The notes below the pieces were generated by a model that searched no databases, had not been told where the DNA came from, and saw nothing but the letters and a program-made list of their open reading frames with translations. Shown piece by piece: positions 11,906 to 61,900 of a stretch of 64,000 nt of DNA. Position 1 is the stretch's first letter; every line of letters starts with the position of its first letter. Made by a program: the position numbers and the translations under genes. The DNA comes from Clavaria fumosa (Eukaryota; Basidiomycota; Agaricomycetes; Agaricales; Clavariaceae), in the NCBI GenBank assembly GCA_951802425.1, contig OX637800.1, forward strand, positions 434,001 through 498,000, in the 5' to 3' direction.

Positions 11906-14250
11906 GTCAAAATTGACCACTCTGTTACACGTGGGACTGGACCTTATTGTTTCAAGATCAGTGGAGAACTCCACCATAAAACTGGTGCTCTTCTCCCCCT
12001 GAGGGGACTGTGCCAAAGTTTGCCCAATTGTATATCTTTGATCCTGCAGAACAGCTGGAACTCAGAGGCAAAACAATCAAAACCTCAATAGAGATATCAT
12101 TTCTGAGGTTCAGGCCATGTTACATGAGATAAATCCTTATGTGACTCTCTACAAGCAGGCATTCATAATCATGAATGAGAAGCCACCTGAGGAGCATCAC
12201 AGGATTTCTGTAAGGCTTCACATGGATAGGGATGCAGACAGAAGAAGGTACAATCTCCCCACTGTTGAGGAGGTTGCAGCCGTGATTCCTGGGGATGCCA
12301 CAGAGGATCGAAGTGAACATAGGGATATTGTGCTACGCCTCCAAGGAGGGGGCCTGAAAAGAATTAGTCACCTTCATCCAAGCTATGCTCCACTTCACTA
12401 TGTTTTACTTTTTCCAAGAGATGAAGAGGGCTGGCACCCTAATATCCCCATTGGTCTAGGACCTGACAATGCTGTCAGGAGCACAATAAAGTCAGTCAGA
12501 GGCGCTATTATGCATATCGGCTGCACTACAGGACAACAGAGGCAGCTACAATTCTTAGAGGTGGAAAGCTTCTCCAACAATATGTGGTGGATGCTTGGGC
12601 CTCAACAGAACAGAGTGCCCTCACTTGGATCAGATTGAATCAGAAGGAGCTCAGAGCTGATTTGTACTCAGGATTGCGTGATGCTGCAGCAAATGAGGAG
12701 TCTTGCTATGTTGAAGCTTGCTGGCATCTGTTTGAATTTGGAATGCATTTTGAGCAACCCGCTGTCTATCGTTTGCCTGTCCATCTCCCTGATCAACAAA
12801 TGGTATACTTCAATCTAGATGACAACTTGGATGATGTTATAGAGAGAGGTAGCTCAAAAACGACATCACTCACAGAGTTCTTTGTGGCCAATGAGCAGTA
12901 TCCAATTGCGAGAGATAACTTACCAAGAGTTTCCTCAGAAGTTCACTTGGAACAAATCAACCAAGAAGGTGGGCTCCCAGGAAAAAAGGATTTGCAATTG
13001 GGAGAATGTACTTTGCCTCACCAGCTGCAGGGGAAAGATTCTACCTTCGCACTCTCCTCACTATAGTCAAAGGTGCCAAGTCATTTGAAGAGCTGCACAC
13101 TGTCAATGGTGAAGTCCATGGTGCATTTAAAGCTGCATGCCTGGCAAGAGGTTTGCTTGAGGATGACAATGAGTGGATATAGTGCTTGCGGGAAGCTTCT
13201 GAGATGCAATTGGGTTCCCAACTTCGGTCCCTGTTTGCCACCATACTTCTTTATTGTCATCCCACACTTCCAGAGGCATTGTGGCAACAGTTTAGGGAAG
13301 GCATCTGTAGTGACTTAGCACACAGGATCCCTCAAATATATCCTGACATTCCTCAACCTTCACCTGCAGATGTCTTTGATTATAGATTTTATCTGCTGAA
13401 CAGGTTGCTGCTCAGATCTGGCAAGAGTATTTCTGACTTCCCTTCAATGCCACAGATTGTAAGAGAATGGGGTACAATGGGTGGAAATGCTCTGCTTCAA
13501 GAGCACTTAGACTATAACCCAGAGGAACAGTCTGAAATTATGACTACACGCCTGGCTGCATTTAATGATGAGAAAAGGACAGCATTCAATGCTGTAATGA
13601 CCTCTGTTGATCAGAAATTGGGCAAATGTCTCTTCCTACACAGTGCAGGTGGTGGGGGTAAGACATATGTATGCAATGCTGCTGCTGCTGCAATTAGAGC
13701 CAGGAGTAAAGTTGCACTTTGTGTTGGCTCTTCAGGGATCTCCTCTCTTCTCTTCCCTGGAGGGCGCACCTCACACTCATGCCTCCACATCCCAATCCCA
13801 GTTGATGATAAATCATTCTGCAAAATTAAGAAGGGGACCAACCTTCATGAGGTGCTCAAGAGCACTGACATCATCATCTGGGATGAGGTGCCTATGCAGC
13901 ACAAGCATTGTGTTGAGGCAGTTGATCGTACACTCCAAGATGTTCTCAATAACAACAGCATCTTTGGAGGCATAACTGTGCTTTTTGGTGGAGATTTTAG
14001 ACAAACAATGCCTGTGGTCCCACATGGAACAAGGGGTCAGATCATAAGTGCATCACTGCGCAGGTCATCTCTTTGGGATAAAATTGAGGTCCATCATCTT
14101 AGGCAAAACATGAGGTTAGAGAGGGATCCTGGGAGTGAACAGTTTGCAAATTGGCTGCTTGAGGTTGGGTCAGGACAGGCAAACCATGTTAATGGGATGG
14201 TCACACTACCACAACATATGCACTGTGGTCCAACAGTACATACTCTCATT
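11906..14250 (+). pseudogene. Helitron Rep/PIF1 helicase, broken
   Basis: Pieces in several frames follow the order of a Helitron transposase. Rep part: HSVTRGTGPYCFKISGELHH at about 11915-11975, then PYVTLYKQAF and DRRRYNLPTVEEVAAVIPG, then a coupling region with NEEWIQCLREA-like sequence. Helicase part at 13186-14250: SAGGGGKTYV (Walker A), IIIWDEVPM (Walker B), GGDFRQTMPVV and LRQNMRL. Helicase motifs V and VI are absent: the frame ends at LIN, where a hairpin-satellite array begins. At least three frameshifts and several stops break it, including one near 12000 (a missing C in a C run). The start is fused within coding sequence to copia RT. Neither a TC 5' end nor a CTRR 3' hairpin was found. 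Confidence 0.8.
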
Positions 14251-14388
14251 AACTGAGGTTGAGTTATGTGTGAATCTATGCATAACTCAGGCTCAGTTAT
14301 GCATGAACCTACACACAACTGAGCCTGAGTTATGCATAGATTTATGCATAACTGAGCCTGAGTTATGCATCAATCTATATGCATAATT
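14251..14388. repeat. Short hairpin-satellite array in helicase gene
   Basis: About four units of the same stem/loop satellite as at 43-48 kb: AGTTATG/CATAACT stems alternate with GAGCCTG or CAGGCTC loops and AGATT- or AATCT-type loops. Nearly all CpGs are decayed (ATGCAT instead of ATGCGT). Its first bases make the stop codon of the helicase frame. Confidence 0.85.
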
Positions 14389-14891
14389 GGCTTTTGTACA
14401 GGCCCAGAGGAGCTTGATGCTCCTCCAGAGTCAGATTTGTTGGAACCTTGGAGGTCTTATGTGCTCTGGAGGACAAAGTGCCAGAACCATGTATGAAGGT
14501 CCAGAGACCACTAGAAAATACTCCAGTGACAGTATTGTGAGTAGCTTACCCTGAGAGTGGGGCCTCAGGACTCAGTACCCATGGCGGTGGCTCATATCTA
14601 GTCCTAGCCTAGTTCATCACTTGGTGAAAATAGGCAATGTTGTGGTATTCAAGCAACAGCAGACAGCCAAAAGAATGACAAGCTCTGGCTCAATCTCATA
14701 CTTGTTGCATTCTCATCCCTCACTCAATGTTTTCTGGAATGCTTTGTGTCCAAGGGAGCAGCATCTAGAAAATGTTGTGAACTCCATTGCAGTTAGGCAC
14801 ATTCTGTGTGACAAATGAACTAGACAGGCAATTTGTGCTCATATCCAGAATGATTATGCACAATGCCTAATTAACCAAGTGAATCAAAGCA
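14389..14891. other. Spacer without recognised feature
   Basis: CpG-poor sequence between the satellite and the next gene. Short ORFs only; possibly decayed helicase or transposon DNA. Nothing can be supported. Confidence 0.4.
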
Positions 14892-17800
14892 CTAATTCTC
14901 TTCATCATCAGAGTAATCTCTGCCTATGCGGGGGCGTTTGGCAGGATGTTGAAATTCATTGGAATGGGAGGAGGATGCAACCTGTTCATGAGCAAAGCAA
15001 GCAGGGAGCATACACTCACCCTTTCTGGCTTGCCTCTTTGCTTCCTCAAGGCCCAGAACAGTAGCAAGGGCATTAAATGGTCCATTCGGTTTTGACGCCA
15101 GGAAACCAGTCAACTGATCATGATAGGCCTGGATCTGGGTGCTGGTGAGGAGTCTGATGTGCTTCCCGAATCTGGCACCCTTGAGGAGGACTTGGCCTTG
15201 GCCAAGAAGGATTCCCAAGCGAACAAGATTGGGCAAGTTGATTGCCTTTGCATCTGGGTAAATCAACTGAATAAGCTTGTTTCTGGAAGGGAACAAGATG
15301 TCTCTCTTACTATGCTTGTTGGTCCAAGGAACGCCTAGTGAGCCATGCTGTTCATGATGCTGACGGAGGGGACTTTGGTCATCATAGATTGCAAGGATGT
15401 AAGTGGCGACCATTGATATATATAAGTCGCGTTGGGAGTTGCCCTTCTTCCCACTGGTGGTGCGGCTGACCCAAGGCAAGCTGGAGAGGAATGCACGTGC
15501 TGATTCCGCACCCTGTAAAGCATTGCTGGGAATCACTTCTGGTGTTGCAGTCCAGACATTGGGGCAAAGTTTTGAAAACATGATGGCAATGAGAAGCGCC
15601 AGTTTGTGGAGAGGAATCCTTAGGTCGATGCGATCACGAATGTAATAGTATGTTTCCTGGACATATGATCCTTCTTGAGCTGCAGGAAACTGGGGCATCT
15701 GGAAGTCGGTAGGAAGAATGTGTCGGTTGAGATAGGAATGAAGTGCATCAATCCGGATTGATGAAGCTTCCCAAGGTGAGTAAACATCTTGCACTCTGGC
15801 CTGGTCAATGGAGCGCTGAATGGTGGCCCTACGGCTGACTGCCAAGGTCTGTACAGATTGGCTGATTTCGGGGGGTGCAGTTTCAGGAGAACCAAATGTT
15901 GTCCATGCTTCCCATGTAGGAATGGAGCTTGGGCGACCTGGTTCACCGCTGTGAGGAGGGCTCCAGGGAATCATGTTGATGCCAAGAGAGAGCATGGCTG
16001 TTCGAAACATTTCTGCAGCATGAGCCTTTGGGTTTCTTTCAAGACCTGTGCCAAGTTGAAACACCTTCTTGAGAGCACTAGGGAGCACCAGCTGGAATTG
16101 TCCCTTTGGGATGAATGGAACACCAGATGTCCTGGGTTTTTCAAGGATGTTGACGAGATCTTTGGTAAAGTCAGCAAGACTTAGACGTTCAACAGATGAC
16201 TTTGGCAATGTATGGCCAGTGGGATTTACAACTTGGATGAGTGGCACACCATTGTCGTAGCTGAGTGGCTTTCGAATGCGGGCCCACTTCTCTAGGTCTT
16301 TGGTTAACGTGTGGCCTAGTCGAATGCTGTCTGGGTCATCACTTGCAAGCAATCCCTGAATATGATTCTTGGCCCCAATAGTCACTAGTGCCACCACATC
16401 TTGGACATAGAGTTCAAGAACGATGTGTGCAGTGATGAGTGATGGGCAGAGATCTTGACTAGAGGTGGGATAGAGATTTGGTGGCAGAGCATAGAGAGTG
16501 TGCTTGATGTGAAACTCCGCAAAGTAACGCTAAATGAGGCATGGGTTAGTAAATAGCTGTGAGCCTGCATAACCTCGTCTAGAGTGTACATAAAGCTGCT
16601 GCTCCACAAGTTCTGGCGCTGCAGTACGCATTTCGTAGACGAGGTTATGTGCATGAACAGAGTGAGCATGTACGCACTGTCCATAAATCAATGCCATATG
16701 ACAGTGTGATTGCACGCTTGGAAGCAACAGCAGGATAACCAGTTGGTGTGATGGGCCAGATGCCAGGATTCCGGCTGAGTTGTGTGGAAATGGAGGAGCT
16801 GAATTTGAGTGCAGAGATGAGGCAGGGGAGACCGAGTTCAACAAGGCTGCGTCGTAGACCAAACGGACCCATCAATTCTCCAGTGATAACACGAGCATCT
16901 CCTGTGTATGCCATTGCCAATGCGCGCTCCAGCATAGCAACAACTTCAATTGTGTATGGTGAAACAGGAATACCATTTTGAACGCGACTTTCTTGTGATT
17001 TCCACAACGTTTGCAACAATGTCACAATGGGATAGGTGGTCCAGAGGTAAATGTTGGGAAAGACATTTGGCTGGAAAGGCTTGCAGCAATATTTCACCAC
17101 GTCCAGGGTGAATGGGTGGGTCCAATGACGAGTGATTGGGTGGATGATTTGACGCAATATTTCACTGGATTGTTGCACTGGAAGTGAGGATGACATTGAG
17201 CAGAAAGGCATGCCACTCACCCTCCATTTCGGATCTCAGGCTTCAGAGAATGAAGATCCACTGTGATAACAATTTCAAACCGCATTGCACGCCCAACATT
17301 GTCTTTGGATAATTTCTCACGAACTCTGTCGTGAGGTAGGTGGGACTGAACATATCGTTTGATCTTGTCAAAGCGGCGCTTTCCGGTGACGTTACTGGCA
17401 TGTGTGCCTGCCAAAGCAGCTGTCAATCTTCCATGAACGACTTCCAGACGACCTGCACGTTCAGTCAGGTTGTGCTGTACAGAGTTATAACCTTGGAATG
17501 CAACAGGACGAATGACTGGATGGGCATCATCAGCATTTATTGCAAGAGATCGGTTAAGGGAGTGGAAGAGAGCTTTGAATGGATAAGGGATTCCATTTGC
17601 CTGGATATGACCATAATGTTTGGTGAATGCCTGAGGGTACACTGTAATTTTGACTGGCTGTTCAAGTTCTGGGTCTTCGACAACCACGTCGTCTTCATCA
17701 CAATTGTTGTGTAGGGCTGGGGGATCAAAAAGAGCCCGAACTTTAGATAACTCTAATAGGATTCCGCAAGGTTTGACCTCTCTTCGATGGCGAGGGCGAC

Positions 17801-36270: not shown

Positions 36271-36593
36271 TCTCAGTTTTTGAAGTCTCACTGTCTTGCT
36301 GGGCTTCTGCAAGGGGCTACAGTTCCCCCAGCGGGCAGAGATCACTGGTGCCTTCCACTCCCACTACTTGTTTCTGGTATCCTGCACTGACTTCACAGAG
36401 CAGTCCCATCTCAATCTATGACATCCATATCCAACAGAGCTTTATCCAATACTCCAAAATATCTCCCTCTGTCTTGTGGCACCAAGTGTGAAACAACATT
36501 GTTGACCAAGACCACTCTGCCCAACTGGCAGCAATGCAGGCCCTAGATCACCGGGCTGGCTGAAATGCAGGCATCTCTCAACTCTATCCCCCC

Positions 36594-37705
36594 TGAACAG
36601 CAAAGACCGCCAAGGGTCTTGGGAGTAAGTGCACCGAGGCACCCACTCCCCATCCCTGCCGGAACAGCAAAGACCACCGAGGGTCTTGGGAGTGAGTGCA
36701 CTGAGGCACCCACTCCCTATCCCCCTGAACAGCAAAGACTGCCAAGGGTCTTGGGAGTGGGTGCACTGAGGCACCCACTCCCTATCTCCCTGTACAACAA
36801 AGACTGCCGAGGGTCTTGGGAGTGGGTGCCTTGGTGCACCCACTCCCTACCCCCTCTGAAGAGCAAAGACCGCCGAGGGTCTTGGAAGTGGGTGCACCGA
36901 GGCACCCACTTCCTATCCCCCCCTGAACAGCAAAGACCGCCGAGGGTCTTGGGAGTGAGTGCACCGAGGCACCCATTCCCTATCCCCTGAACAACAAAGA
37001 CCACCGAGGGTCTTGGGAGTGAGTGCACCGAGGCACCCACTCCCTATCCCCCTGAACAGCAAAGACTGCCAAGGGTCTTGGGAGTGGGTGCACTGAGGCA
37101 CCCACTCCCTATCTCCCTGTACAACAAAGACTGCCGAGGGTCTTGGGAGTGGGTGCCTTGGTGCACCCACTCCCTACCCCCTCTGAAGAGCAAAGACCGC
37201 CAAGGGTCTTGGAAGTGGGTGCACCGAGGCACCCACTTCCTATCCCCCCCTGAACAGCAAAGACCGCCAAGGGTCTTGGGAGTGAGTGCACCGAGGCACC
37301 CATTCCCTATCCCCTGAACAACAAAGACCACCGAGGGTCTTGAGAGTGAGTGCACTGAGGCACCCACTCCCTATCCCCCTGAACAGCAAAGACTGCCAAG
37401 GGTCTTGGGAGTGGGTGCACTGAGGCACCCACTCCCTATCTCCCTGTACAACAAAGACTGCCGAGGGTCTTGGGAGTGGGTGCCTTGGTGCACCCACTCC
37501 CTACCCCCTCTGAAGAGCAAAGACCGCCGAGGGTCTTGGAAGTGGGTGCACCGAGGCACCCACTTCCTATCCCCCCCTGAACAGCAAAGACCGCCGAGGG
37601 TCTTGGGAGTGAGTGCACCGAGGCACCCATTCCCTATCCCCTGAACAACAAAGACCACTGAGGGTCTTGGGAGTGAGTGCACCGAGGCACCCACTTCCTA
37701 TCCCC
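36594..37705. repeat. Hairpin minisatellite with 327-bp higher-order repeat
   Basis: Seventeen monomers of 64-67 bp. Each has a small hairpin (AAGAC-x-GCC-x-AGGGTCTT type) and a larger one (GGGAGTGGGTGC stem, six-base loop, GCACCCACTCCC). Monomers 3-7 form a five-monomer block of 327 bp present three times. One monomer type has GGAAGTGGG paired with CCCACTTCC, a compensating change; another has loop CTTGGT where others have ACCGAG or ACTGAG, the reverse complement allowing one C-to-T. Because 327 is divisible by 3, long ORFs appear; they are not genes. Confidence 0.9.
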
Positions 37706-42560: not shown

Positions 42561-43162
42561 CTCTGGAGTAGTGGGGGGATTCCTAATGTTTATCAGATTG
42601 GATATTTAGACTGAAAGGAAATAGCACTCACATGCTTGCTCCTCTAGGTCGCTCTAGGGGGAAGGGAAATTTCTAAATCAATTTGTAATAAAATGAATAA
42701 GCAAATACACACCTGGCCAATAGTCTACTTAACCAACACTCCACCAGCCTCTAGTCTATCCAATCTATGCATAAAAGTCAGTATTTTTACTCTGACAATT
42801 GAGTCCTGTACAAAACAACCTTATCTGATCAAGAGAAACCTATATCAGAGGTTAGAATCTTGTGATAGTGGTGTGATAAGGCAAAGAAATGCTTACGGAA
42901 CAGCCCCAGGAGGTCAGAGTGATATATTTGGAGCAGCGGAAAGTGTGGGAGAGATGAGGGAAAGCCAAGTGGGGCAGGGGGGGCAGGGAAGAGGCAAGGG
43001 AGGGGCAGGAGAGCAGTCCCAGGGAGGGGACCATCATGCCGGGTGTCGTTGTCGCACAGGTGACAGCGCATGACATGCCGGTGACATGCCGCTGTCACCG
43101 CTAAGCGAGTGCCTGCCAAGGCTCGCTTAATTCTTGTTTTCTCATGCGTCGTCCCATTCTTA

Positions 43163-44336
43163 TTAGATTCATACATAATTCAGGCTCAGTTGAAGATTTA
43201 TGCATGACTTGATCTCAGCTGTGAATCTATGCATAACTCTCAACCTCAGTTGTGCATAAATCTACACATAACTGCACCTGACTTGTGTGTCAATTTACAC
43301 CTCAGTTGTGCATGGATTTATGCATAACTCAGGCTAAGTTATGCATAGATTCACAGATAACTCAGGCTCAGTTGTGTGTAAATTCATGCATAACTGAGCC
43401 TCAGTGGTGCATAGATTGACACATAACTCAGGCATAACTCAGGCTCAGTTTTGCATAGATTCACGCATAACTTAACCTGAGTTATGCGTGAATCTATGCA
43501 TAAGTCAGGCTCAGTTGTGCGTGGATTCACACATAAGTCAACCTCAGTGGTGCATAGATTCATACATAACTGAGCCTGAGTTATGCATAGATTCATAACT
43601 TACCCTGAGTTATGCATGATCTACGCATAAGTCAACCTCAGTTATGCGCAGATTCACTCATAACTCAGGCTCAGTTATGCATAAATCTACGCATAACTGA
43701 GGTTGACTTATGCGTGAATCCACACATAACTGAGGTTGACTTATGCGTAGATTCATGCATAAGTCAGGCGCAGTTATGTGTCAATCTACGCATAACTTAG
43801 CCTGACTTATGCGTGAATTTACACATAAGTCAACCTCAGTTGTGCATAGATTCACGCATGACTGAGCCTCAGTTATGCATAGATTCACGCATAACTTAGC
43901 CTGAGTTATGCATGAATCTACGCATAAGCCAACCTCAGTTATGCGTGGATTCACTCATGACTCAGGCTCAGTTATGCATGGATTCACGCATAACTCAGGC
44001 TAAGTTATGCGTCAATCTACGCATAACTGAGCCTGAGTTATGCATGAATTTACGCACAACTGAGGTCGGGTTATGCGTGAATCTACACACAAGTCAGGCT
44101 CAGTTGTGCATAGATTTACACATAACTGAGGTTGAATGAGCGGGTGGGACGACGTGGGCTGCTGCCGCCGCCGCCGGAAATTATGTGTAAATTCATGCAA
44201 AACTGAGCCTGAGTTATGTGTCAATCTATGCACCACTGAGGCTCAGTTATGCATGAATTTACACACAACTGAGCCTGAGTCATGTGTGAATCTATGCATA
44301 ACTTAGCCTGAGTTATGCATAAATCTATGCACAACT
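43163..44336. repeat. Hairpin satellite, left block
   Basis: A ~33-bp period. A 9-base stem (AGTTATGCG or decayed AGTTATGCA) alternates with its reverse complement, separated alternately by a 7-base loop (CAGGCTC/GAGCCTG and variants) and an 8-base loop (TAGATTCA/TGAATCTA and variants), both in either orientation. A GC-rich ~42-bp insert (GCTGCCGCCGCCGCCGG) lies at 44137-44178. CpGs are mostly decayed to TG/CA. The block ends at the CAACT target duplication of the LTR. Confidence 0.95.
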
Positions 44337-45820
44337 TGTCAGGACCCATTCATTTTTCCCTGGCCTACATCTAGGGCATTCCACAGATATTTCATGGACT
44401 TTAGTAAATAGAATCGTAGCCCTTCATTTTTGGATGAAAATAATAATAAAATAACATTCAAAATGATGCAGAATTGACTGAGATATGGACAGTGCAAGTT
44501 TTATGGCTGAAGCTTTTAAATTGATGCTTCCTCACCTTAATCTTTGCAAGAGAGTCATCAAATTTTCACAAACCTTCAAAAAACTCACATTTTGATGACT
44601 CTCTTGCAAAGATTGAGGTGAGGAAGCATCAATTTAAAAGCTTCAGCCATGAAACTTGTACTGTCCATATCTCAGTCAATTCTGCATCATTTTAAATGCA
44701 ATTTTTAAAAAATTTCATCAAGAAATGAAGGGCTATGATCCTATTTACTAAAAACCCATGAAATACCCATAGTTAACCTGTGGAATGCCCTACCTACATC
44801 GACTCTATGGACCTCCCAATGCCTCCTTACCACCTCGCGAACCACCCTGTACCCTTCCGAAACCCACTATCTGATTCTGAACACCTCCCGGACCTCCCTC
44901 GCCTTATCACGACATGCTACACTCGCACAGCCTCCCCCCATCACCCTACACAGCATTCATGACAGACTTATTACAGTGTAAAAAATTATAATAAAGGATG
45001 CAAAAAAAGTTAAAATTTGTAGGCCTCAAAAATGGTTTCACATATTGTAGAAAAACTTGAATTTAGTTATGCTGTCTATGGTCTGAGGATCCCCCCATAG
45101 CTATAACTATGTATATGCCTATTTATCTAGGTCGCAACCTGTGACAGGTCATCTTTGCAACCTTAGTTATGCTTTCTTTACCCCTTGTGAACTTAGTAGA
45201 ACATGCACATAGTCACTTTATGACTAACTACTATAGTCTTGTCACCTGGTGACTTCTGTACTCTTCCTTACTTGTTCTACTTTCTGTATGCACATATATA
45301 AGTCTCACATGTACATACAGTACTGTAGACTTGATATTGACACATTTTGGTTTAAGCTTGAGGCCTTGACACCCTTTGAGCCTGGAACCATCGCAATTGA
45401 TAGTTCTTGTCTCCCTTGGTGACTCCAACACTTGGTGACTCCAACAATGCCATGACACTCCTGTTTCATTCTAACTTGTCCTCCACACTCATATAACTTG
45501 CATGACCTAATTATTTTCTCTTATTCATCTTGGTACTGACTCCTGGAACCCTACAGGTCCACTCATTGGTCAGCAAGGTCATTGCCTTTACCGACTTTCC
45601 TCTCGACATTGCCACAACTACTTGCAACCTTCTCAGTGACTTACTCTCTTTCTTAACTTGTCTTTTTCCCTTCCTACACTTTGTTTGTCAACTTCATGAC
45701 CTTCCAGGACCAAGTATTGTCAATTGTACTCAACAGTTGATTGGTCTTAGCAAGTTCACAGATCAGTCACCAATGAATCAACCCCTAGGCTCTATTCTCA
45801 AGACAGGACAAGTCCTAACA
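44337..45820 (+). mobile_element. Solo LTR, family A, with 5-bp target duplication
   Basis: TGTCAGGAC at the start and GTCCTAACA at the end form imperfect inverted ends (TG..CA). CAACT is repeated at 44332-44336 and 45821-45825, and satellite sequence continues on both sides. Without the inner MITE and its duplication the LTR is about 1,055 bp. No internal element region remains, so it is a solo LTR from recombination. ORFs inside are not genes. Confidence 0.9.
44372..44792. mobile_element. hAT-type foldback MITE (421 bp)
   Basis: Perfect 15-bp terminal inverted repeats TAGGGCATTCCACAG, extended as an almost complete inverted repeat over the whole element (arms ~190 bp). The flanks carry CCTACATC at 44364-44371 and 44793-44800, an 8-bp target duplication. 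It has no coding capacity. It was inserted into the LTR, so it is the youngest layer here. Confidence 0.95.
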
Positions 45821-45825
45821 CAACT

Positions 45826-48760
45826 GAGGTTGAGTTATGTGTAAATTGACACACAAGTCAGGTGCAGTTATGTGTAGATTTATGCATAACTGAGGTTGAG
45901 TTATGCATACAGTTGTGTGTAGATTCATACATAATTCAGGCTCAGTTATGCAAAGATTTATGCATAACTTGACCTCAGTTGTACATAAATTCAAACATAA
46001 CTCAGGCTCAAATATGTGTGATTCTATGCATAACTCTCAACCTCAGTTATGCATGAATCTACACATAACTGCACCTGACTTGTTTGTCAATATACACATA
46101 ACTCAGGCTCAAATATGTGTGATTCTATGCATAACTCTCAACCTCAGTTATGCATGAATCTACACATAACTGCACCTGACTTGTTTGTCAATATACACAT
46201 AACTCAACTTCAGTTGTGCATAGATTTATGCATAACTCAGGCTAAGTTACGCATAGATTCACAGATAACCCAGGCTCAGTTGTGTGTAAATTCACGCATA
46301 ACTCAAGCTCAGTTATGCGTGGATCCAATCTATGCATAACTCAGGCTCAGTTGTGTGTAGATTCATGCATAACTCAGGCTCAGTTAGTAGATTCGCACAT
46401 AATTAGATCCACGCATAACTGAGCTTGAGTTATGCGTAGATTGATGCATAATTGAGCCTGAGTTATGGGTGAATCTACGCATAACTCAGGCTCAGTTATG
46501 TGTAGATTTATGCATAACTAAGGTTGACTTATGCGTGCATCTACGCATAAGTCAACCTTAGTTATGCGTAGATTCACGTGTAACTCAGGCTAAGTTATGC
46601 GTGAATCTATGCATAACTCAGGCTAAGTTATGCATGAATCTACGCATAACTCAGACTCAGTTACACGTCAATCTACGCATAACTCAACCTCAGTTATGTG
46701 TAGATTCACGCGTAACTCAGGCTCAGTTGTGCATGAATCTACGCATAACTCGGGCTCAGTTGTGCGTAGATTCACGCATAACTGCGGTTGAGTTATGCGT
46801 AGATTTACGCATAACTAAGGTTGACTTATGCGTAGATTTACACATAACTAAGGTTGACTTATGCGTAGATTTACGCATAAGTAGGCCCGAGTTGAGCATG
46901 AATCTACGCATAAGTCAACCTTAGTTATGCGTAAATCTACGCATAAGTCAACCTTAGTTATGCGTAAATCTACACATAACTGAGCCTGAGTTATGCGTAG
47001 ATTCACGCATCACTGGGGTTGAGTTACGCGTCAATCTACGCGTGACTCAGACTCAGTTATGCGCGAATCTACGCATAACTCAACCTGAGTTATGCGTAGA
47101 TTCACGCGTAAATCAGGCTCAGTTGTGCGTAGATTTACGCATAACTGAGTCTGAGTTATGCGTGAATCCACGCACAACTGAGCCTGAATACACGCATAAC
47201 TGAGGTTGAGTTATGCATAGATTTACGCATAACTCAGGCTCAGTTATGTGGAAACTCAACCTCAGTTATGCGTAAATCTACGCACAACTGAGCCTGAGTT
47301 ACGCGTGAATCTACGCATAACTCAGGCTCAGTTATGCGTAGACTCACGCGTAACTCAGACTCAGTTATGCGTGAATCTACGCGTAACTCAGACTCAGTTA
47401 CGCGTGAATCTACGCATAACTCAGACTCAGTTACGCGTAAATCTACGCATAACTGAGGTTGAGTTATGCGTGAATCTACGCATAACTCAGACTCAATTAT
47501 GCGTGAGTCTACGCATAACTGAGCCTGAGTTATGCGTAGATTCACGCTCAACTCAGACTCAGTTATGCGTAAATCTACGCACAACTGAGCCTGAGTTATG
47601 CGTGAATCTACGCACAACTGAGCCTGAGTTACACGTAGATTCACGCGTAACTGAGTCTGAGTTATGCGTAGATTTACGCATAACTGAGTCTGAGTTATGC
47701 GTGAGTCTACGCATAACTGAGGTTGAGTTATGCGTGAATCTACGCGTAACTCAGGCTCAGTTGTGCGTAGATTTACGCATAACTGAGTCTGAGTTATGCG
47801 TGAATCTACGCATAACTCAGACTCAATTATGCGTGAGTCTACGCATAACTGAGCCTGAGTTATGCGTAGATTCACGCTCAACTCAGACTCAGTTATGCGT
47901 AAATCTACGCACAACTGAGCCTGAGTTATGCGTGAATCTACGCACAACTGAGCCTGAGTTACACGTAGATTCACGCGTAACTGAGTCTGAGTTATGCGTA
48001 GATTTACGCATAACTGAGTCTGAGTTATGCGTGAGTCTACGCATAACTGAGGTTGAGTTATGCGTGAATCTACGCGTAACTCAGGCTCAGTTACGCGTGA
48101 ATCTACGCATAACTCAACCTAAGTTATGCGTAGATTCACGCGTAACTCAGGCTCAGTTGTGCGTAGATTTACGCATAACTGAGCCTGAGTTACGCGTGAA
48201 TCTACGCATAACTCAGGCTCAGTTATGTGTAGATTCACGCTCAACTCAGGCTGAGTTATGCGTAAATCTACGCACAACTGAGCCTGAGTTACGCGTGAAT
48301 CTACGCATAACTTAGGTTGAGTTATGCGTAGATTCACGCGTAACTGAGCCTGAGTTACGCGTAGATTCACGCATAACTCAACCTCAGTTATGCGTAGACT
48401 CACGCATAACTCAGACTCAGTTATGCGTAAATCTACGCATAACTCAGACTCAGTTACGTGTGAATCTACGCGTAACTCAGGCTCAGTTGTGCGTAGATTC
48501 ACGCATAACTCAGGCTCAGTTGTGCGTAGATTTACGCATAACTGAGTCTGAGTTGAGCGTGAATCTACGCATAACTCAGGCTCAGTTATGCGTAGACTCA
48601 CGCATAATTGAGTCTGAGTTATGCGTAGATTCACGCATAACTCAACCTCAGTTATGCGTAGATTTACGCGTAACTGAGTCTGAGTTACGCGTGAATCTAC
48701 GCATAACTTAGGTTGAGTTATGCGTAGATTCACGCTCAACTCAGGCTGAGTTATGTGTAG
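45826..48760. repeat. Hairpin satellite, right block
   Basis: About 88 periods of 33 bp with the same stem/loop plan as the left block. From about 46900 on, CpGs are mostly intact (ATGCGT, ACGCAT), while 45826-46600 is mostly decayed. Seven-base loops come as CAGGCTC, CAGACTC, CAACCTC and their reverse complements; eight-base loops as TAGATTCA, TAGACTCA, TAGATTTA and reverse complements. Because 33 is divisible by 3, frames up to 355 codons open on both strands with an 11-residue repeat (such as LCVNLRITEPE); these are not genes. Confidence 0.95.
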
Positions 48761-48866
48761 ATGTAGTGGTTGTGTAATATTGTATCTGAACTAAGCATAA
48801 GTAGGCCTTCCTTGGCCCAGCATAACCCACCCATAACCCTAGGGGAATTACCAAAACATAGTTACA

Positions 48867-61699: not shown

Positions 61700-61900
61700 A
61701 GGCCGGGGTCTGGGGACCCGAAGGTTGTTGGTCAGGTGTGTATGGATGGCGAGGGGTCTGGGGACCCGAAGGTTGTTGGTCGGGTGTGTATGGATGGCAA
61801 GGGGTCTGGGGACCCGAAGGTTGTTGGTCGGGTGTGTATGGATGGCAAGGGGTCTGGGGACCCAAAGGTTGTTGGTCGGGTGTGTATGGATGGCGAGGGG
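61700..61900 (-). repeat. 48-bp tandem repeat in gag N-terminus
   Basis: Four copies of a 48-bp unit (GGGGTCTGGGGACCCGAAGG start). On the minus strand they encode a 16-residue Pro/Gln repeat (YTPDQQPSGPQTPCHP) in frame with the region upstream of gag. Confidence 0.85.

Follow-up and report, generated by a model that had tools for sequence, protein, structure and literature searches.

Inverted loops in a hairpin minisatellite of Clavaria fumosa: probable origin in backward copying of array blocks

The window analyzed here is a 64,000-nucleotide stretch of Clavaria fumosa DNA, positions 434001-498000 of contig C7 in the searched assembly of 17 contigs and 48.76 megabases (Mb). Between positions 43163 and 48762 it carries a tandem array of short hairpins whose loops occur in both orientations while the stems stay in register. 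The first-pass annotation, made from the letters of the DNA, proposed repeated inversion of single loops. The analysis presented here indicates instead that both loop orientations probably come mostly from in-register backward copying of array stretches, and not from loop-by-loop flips.

The array is a minisatellite built of units of 33 base pairs (bp), namely a stem of 9, a loop of 8, an inverted stem of 9 and a loop of 7, so that each unit is two short hairpins with shared arms. Three parts are distinguished in the text:

43163-44336, no strand assigned: left block of the 33-bp hairpin array, in which some units are irregular and a short GC-rich sequence is inserted near 44128-44178.
45826-46403, no strand assigned: right block, CpG-poor part, which holds a direct duplication with a 101-bp shift.
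46404-48762, no strand assigned: right block, CpG-rich part.

Parsing by stems yielded 245 stems over three stretches (14262-14369, 43230-44336 and 45833-48757), and the existence of a stem/loop array with loops in both directions, as first described, is confirmed by this token parse. Tandem Repeats Finder reports a 33-bp period in the main array at 43301-44131, 44181-44336, 45818-45905, 45910-46386 and 46404-48762, and also at 14250-14378. The alternation was initially described as strict; 227 of the 242 inter-stem gaps are indeed of the expected length (114 of 8 bp and 113 of 7 bp), but the other 15 differ, and 44337-45820 is an insertion rather than array. Similarly, the stems are not constant throughout: AGTTATGCG/CGCATAACT predominate in the right half of the array alone, and on the left the stems vary freely. 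There, among the top seven forms per stretch, CpG-lacking forward stems such as AGTTATGCA are more frequent, while CGCATAACT is still the most frequent reverse stem at 43000-44400 (n=6). CpG transitions account for much of the variation among stems. The CpG observed/expected ratio is 0.51, 0.0 and 0.20 in three left stretches versus 1.15-1.43 in four right stretches, with 0.59 for window positions 1-43000 as reference, and the right end of the array therefore looks younger or more recently homogenized.

All six loop classes named at the outset were counted in both orientations:

7-bp loop CAGGCTC: 25 forward, 18 inverse.
7-bp loop CAGACTC: 11 forward, 9 inverse.
7-bp loop CAACCTC: 7 forward, 7 inverse.
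8-bp loop TAGATTCA: 25 forward, 27 inverse.
8-bp loop TAGATTTA: 16 forward, 11 inverse.
8-bp loop TAGACTCA: 3 forward, 4 inverse.

Six oriented classes account exactly for 86 of 114 8-bp loops (maximum of 1,000 column shuffles, 43) and for 77 of 113 7-bp loops (maximum, 33). This linkage within loops, far above that of the shuffles, disfavors independent point mutation as the general source. The palindromic intermediates TAGATCTA, TGAATTCA and TAAATTTA were each observed 0 times, where 7.9, 3.8 and 10.3 are expected under independence, and the 7-bp classes differ from their own inverses by transversions. Some mixed loops are present (TAAATTCA, 4; TGAATTTA, 3; CAGGCTG, 2; GAGCCTC, 2; GAGGCTC, 1; CAACCTG, 1). 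Neighboring loops agree in orientation about half of the time (50/103 for an 8-bp loop followed by a 7-bp loop and 59/104 for the reverse order), and this mixing is found along the whole array.

Ungapped self-comparison of the array reveals block copies in both orientations:

47790-48180, plus strand: left arm of a 391-bp inverted duplication, identical at 389/391 positions, with 2 mismatches (47963 and 47975), both CpG transitions.
48254-48644, minus strand: right arm of the same duplication; the inner edges of both arms lie at a stem.
43304-43433, plus strand: left arm of a second inverted duplication, matching 44207-44336 in reverse complement at 127/130 positions.
44207-44336, minus strand: right arm of the second inverted duplication.
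47444-47762, plus strand: copy 1 of a direct duplication with a 330-bp shift (10 units), 317/319 identical to 47774-48092.
45995-46105 and 46096-46206, no strand assigned: direct duplication with a 101-bp shift, 111/111 identical.

The tandem array thus carries unit blocks in both orientations, and the inverted blocks keep the unit register: the 391-bp arms enclose an in-register spacer of 73 bp (48181-48253) bordered by the inner-edge stems 48172-48180 and 48254-48262. As a near-perfect inverted copy with its inner edge at inverted microhomology, this duplication weakly resembles the fold-back type.

Loops were compared in 18 block pairs picked or trimmed from the self-comparison lists; the pairs overlap, so that the comparisons are not independent, and the use of long ungapped matches selects somewhat against flips. 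In the nine pairs with at least 95.7% identity, 83 of 90 loop comparisons give the same loop, 4 show a point change, 3 belong to another class and none is an exact flip; at one of the three replaced loops, 47323, both class and orientation changed. The nine less similar pairs contain 3 flips among 82 loop comparisons (47306, 48164 and 48032), each beside one or two replaced loops, a pattern that recombination between units would give. The clean candidate for a single flip, 47306 compared with 47735, was rejected on this ground, since the next loop is replaced too and a recombination mosaic explains the region (47264-47355 matches 48254-48345, and 47327-47432 matches 48383-48488). When windows were compared without regard to orientation, the flip fraction was 0 to 0.17 at a blind distance of at most 5 and 0.33-0.46 at distances of 6 to 13. 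Of eight flip-bearing window pairs at a distance of at most 5, five carry the flip at the window end only, interpreted here as a block edge, and in the other three a flip lies within the window.

The sequence context of reversed loops points in the same direction. Among same-class pairs of opposite orientation in the right part, flanks with at most 2 mismatches were found for 64/610 in inverted alignment and 19/610 in direct alignment, pairs not being independent; for different-class opposite pairs the corresponding near-identical flanks number 42/1,356 and 29/1,356. Flipped-loop pairs show no excess of direct-context similarity beyond different-class pairs. If anything, they differ more in stem context (by +0.28 and +0.17 mismatches, with permuted values no higher than the observed ones in 389 and 397 of 400 cases), and the difference in wider context is not notable (333 and 283 of 400 permutations). 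Because flanks are shared more in inverted alignment and flips show no direct excess, inverted blocks are the source of inverted loops that can be demonstrated. Inversion itself therefore stands as the right operation in the first-pass annotation, given exact reverse complements and missing palindromic intermediates, but the inverting unit that is seen is a multi-unit block. That annotation had let its proposal depend on whether blocks explain the orientations without independent flips; they largely do (0/90), but not fully, given the 3/82 in weaker pairs and loop 47323.

These observations suggest the following mechanism. Growth and turnover of the array would involve two kinds of block duplication. 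The direct kind would arise by in-register exchange; in the inverted kind, one of the 9-bp stems would be where a strand folds back or changes template, to be extended backwards over tens to hundreds of bases. For the latter, we infer that a 3' end in one stem pairs with another, inverted stem and primes backward copying. Because the stems are mutual inverted copies spaced every 16-17 bp, a backward copy would join in register, with all loops of the block changing orientation while the stems appear constant, and repeated rounds together with exchange between units could scramble orientation down to the scale of single loops. Fold-back or template switching is accordingly a putative chemistry, consistent with the predicted folding of the DNA: 200 nucleotides of array fold as a single strand at -74.6 kcal/mol versus a shuffled mean of -24.1 (z -16.6), and three single array hairpins as single-stranded DNA at -7.3 to -8.9 kcal/mol.

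Block copying was also simulated. In a first set of 4,000 runs, the block-only model was limited to point mutation, deletion and the duplication of blocks in direct or inverted orientation; 165 of its 1,333 runs agreed with the array in diversity and recent copying. Those runs gave a neighbor agreement of 0.30-0.67 (5-95%) and a median share of 1.0 for variants in both orientations, compared with observed values of 0.41 and 0.50 and of 9/9 variants, so that under this model block duplication without flips appears able to reproduce random orientation. Direct duplication plus flips alone matched diversity in 170 of 1,333 runs; it was rejected as a model, leaving a median of 0.33 of variants in both orientations and being unable to make inverted blocks. 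A second set comprised 14,000 runs, of which 6,233 block-only and 6,158 block-plus-flip runs were kept after those with an undefined statistic were dropped. The simulated flip rate remains near its prior, and a modest rate of flipping is beyond what one haplotype can measure.

Several results weigh against an origin mainly in backward block copying. In a direct search for flips between loop pairs in similar contexts at rising flank length, which carries no computed chance expectation, short flanks do show flips: at 25-bp flanks, 337 loop pairs include 17 exact flips and 22 near ones, with exact flips falling to 4/135 at 33 bp (3 near), 2/80 at 42 bp and 0/51 at 58 bp. That the inner edges lie at stems argues only weakly for fold-back, as any inverted copy in register would show the same. 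Flips make up a fraction of 0.003 in the window pairs of highest similarity, less than the 5% quantile of 0.022 in the block-only model, and the simulation is therefore a rough guide. Models with added flips fit about equally well in the second set: block-only runs took 28, 56 and 103 places, and block-plus-flip runs 22, 44 and 97, among the best 50, 100 and 200, respectively. Lastly, the context test is low-powered: in its own simulation, with 528 of 1,500 runs retained for their diversity, the statistics still overlapped at a rate of ten flips per loop per substitution.

A second hairpin minisatellite in the window, at 36584-37705, has a 65-bp unit and a 327-bp higher-order repeat, with relatives at 24 other genome places among the matches listed. 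It served as comparator, in 20 regions covering 21 of the 24 listed places, together with the window array; two of the 20 regions gave no units, and 86 units were parsed. Hairpin 1 has uniform loop orientation in 86/86 units and hairpin 2 in 83/86. The three inverted hairpin 2 loops read CTTGGT, in contrast to the ACCGAG or ACTGAG of other units, on a perfect 12-bp stem; they occur once per 327-bp repeat, in 3 of the 17 units of the window array, and are read as one flip event copied within that repeat. With one copied event among 86 units, hairpin loops do flip in this genome, but rarely. The comparator family, in which no inverted units were seen, retains its loop orientation. A loop flipped between homologous flanks was seen once in the 65-bp array; the main array gives 0/90 and 3/82, with low power.

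The strongest rival holds that single loops invert singly through hairpin or cruciform template switching, as in plastid small inversions, and that block duplications copy the outcome. It would account for the random orientation of neighbors, the good folding of array hairpins, the three exact flips in less similar block pairs and the fit of simulations that include flips; the one clear flip on a perfect stem in the 65-bp minisatellite and loop inversions described in excerpts of published work (PMC8794818, PMC6824564) also speak for it. Set against the absence of exact flips from the most similar block pairs, the unrelated direct contexts of flipped loops and a comparator with one event in hairpin 2 (3/86) and none in hairpin 1 (0/86), we regard this explanation as unlikely, though worth keeping in view. 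A bolder form, in which the loop of each hairpin can flip in the course of replication, as frequently as point mutation or more so, with block copying on top, is slightly less likely still; if true, the orientations would be a self-scrambling bar code readable as a lineage recorder.

The remaining explanations fare worse. Near-perfect inverted repeats are a known artefact class, and an inverted repeat created in assembly or sequencing by a fold-back read is conceivable on that account; at least two inverted pairs of unequal divergence (127/130 and 389/391) and mixed orientation through the whole array make it improbable. Programmed loop inversion by a site-specific recombinase or nuclease acting on the stems would suit the regular stem/loop layout, but no second array appears among the matches listed, stems vary freely on the left, and the 10 of 42 open reading frames scanned (introns not considered) gave a Copia-type polymerase with integrase core and a PIF1 helicase and no other recombinase; we give this explanation hardly any credence. 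It is equally hard to believe that both orientations are convergent transitions of palindromic loops, through CpG decay or mutation resembling repeat-induced point mutation. Stem variation is largely CpG transition and mixed loops exist, as that explanation would have it, but missing palindromic intermediates, strong linkage and the transversions between 7-bp classes and their inverses speak against it, and for the main classes convergent point mutation is rejected on account of the linkage.

The interruption of the array and its place in the genome can be described as follows:

44337-45820, no strand assigned: long terminal repeat (LTR)-like insertion dividing the array, 1,484 bp, which starts TGTCAGGACC (TGTCAGGAC) and ends GTCCTAACA.
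44332-44336, plus strand: target-site duplication CAACT, left copy.
45821-45825, plus strand: target-site duplication CAACT, right copy.
14251-14389, no strand assigned: detached array piece of about 130 bp, adjoining a PIF1-helicase fragment.

Removal of the insertion restores the unit register across the CAACT sites; the two flanking blocks are one array, interrupted, and the insertion is read as LTR-like with a 5-bp target duplication. Inside it, at about 44381-44796, lies a nested fold-back sequence with relatives elsewhere in the genome. With 40 of 759 candidates scored, this inner part (bases 45-460) matches other genome places at 81-89% and the right half (from about base 732) at about 75%, and no second full-length copy is among the matches listed.

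Other arrays, which the first-pass annotation had thought worth seeking, did not appear: pattern and similarity searches of the assembly, whose repeat counts are lower bounds, list no further copies besides the main array and 14251-14389. Single weak matches on contigs C3, C4 and C5 look like chance, control patterns having given 5 and 3. Scanned for the exact pattern, bacterial and archaeal genomes gave 3 places, taken as chance; viral contigs, scanned for exact 29-base matches, gave 0. The abundance at many loci expected of a satellite with inverted units is thus not seen, and with a single place and a small detached piece among the matches listed, minisatellite is the safer word. At the detached piece, a PIF1-like helicase reading frame (13186-14250) is truncated at 14250, where array DNA starts. 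Four other genome copies of the helicase sequence (95-98% identical) diverge from 14251 onward, and what lies to the right of the piece was not found at those four loci (best 12-14 mismatches per 30). The best match of the piece itself to the main array is 88%, so it does not look freshly copied. Copia-type polymerase and PIF1-helicase matches occur among the window reading frames scanned. On the minus strand at 14895-16397 lies a 501-amino-acid open frame without Pfam match, with one protein-search match (417 amino acids, 52% identity over 72%), and at 61705-61900 a 48-bp tandem repeat of 4.1 copies with 97% matches.

If backward block copying is the main source of inverted loops, the stems would act as inverted microhomology that makes inverted duplication register-neutral: a tandem repeat of mutually inverted stems could copy itself both ways without loss of register. 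Such an array would render inverted duplication visible at base resolution and offer a marked locus for measuring fold-back copying, direct exchange and single-loop flipping against each other.

Among open-licence papers, whose titles and abstract beginnings were covered, no satellite with this layout was found, which is weak evidence; the comparisons below likewise rest on excerpts of the papers cited. Satellite higher-order repeats with inversely oriented monomers are described from beetles, mammals and others (PMC5615363, PMC7859515) and share with this locus a tandem array with copies in both orientations; here, however, the array is fungal and at one genome place among the matches listed, and the unit is a chain of inverted stems in which inversion holds register every 16-17 bp. 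Small inversions bounded by hairpins in plastid genomes (PMC6824564) similarly present a loop between short inverted repeats in two orientations, but these are isolated loci compared between species, whereas here blocks, and not single loops, are seen inverting in a tandem array. Template-switch loop inversion, described for RNA genes (PMC8794818), resembles the present case in the proposed copying chemistry and in inverted loops between intact stems; those mutations are single-hairpin events, whereas the copying proposed here extends up to hundreds of bases. Fold-back inverted duplications at breaks in yeast are primed at short microhomology (PMC11724301), as is proposed for this array; they are mostly about 5-34 bp in size, compared with 130-391 bp here.

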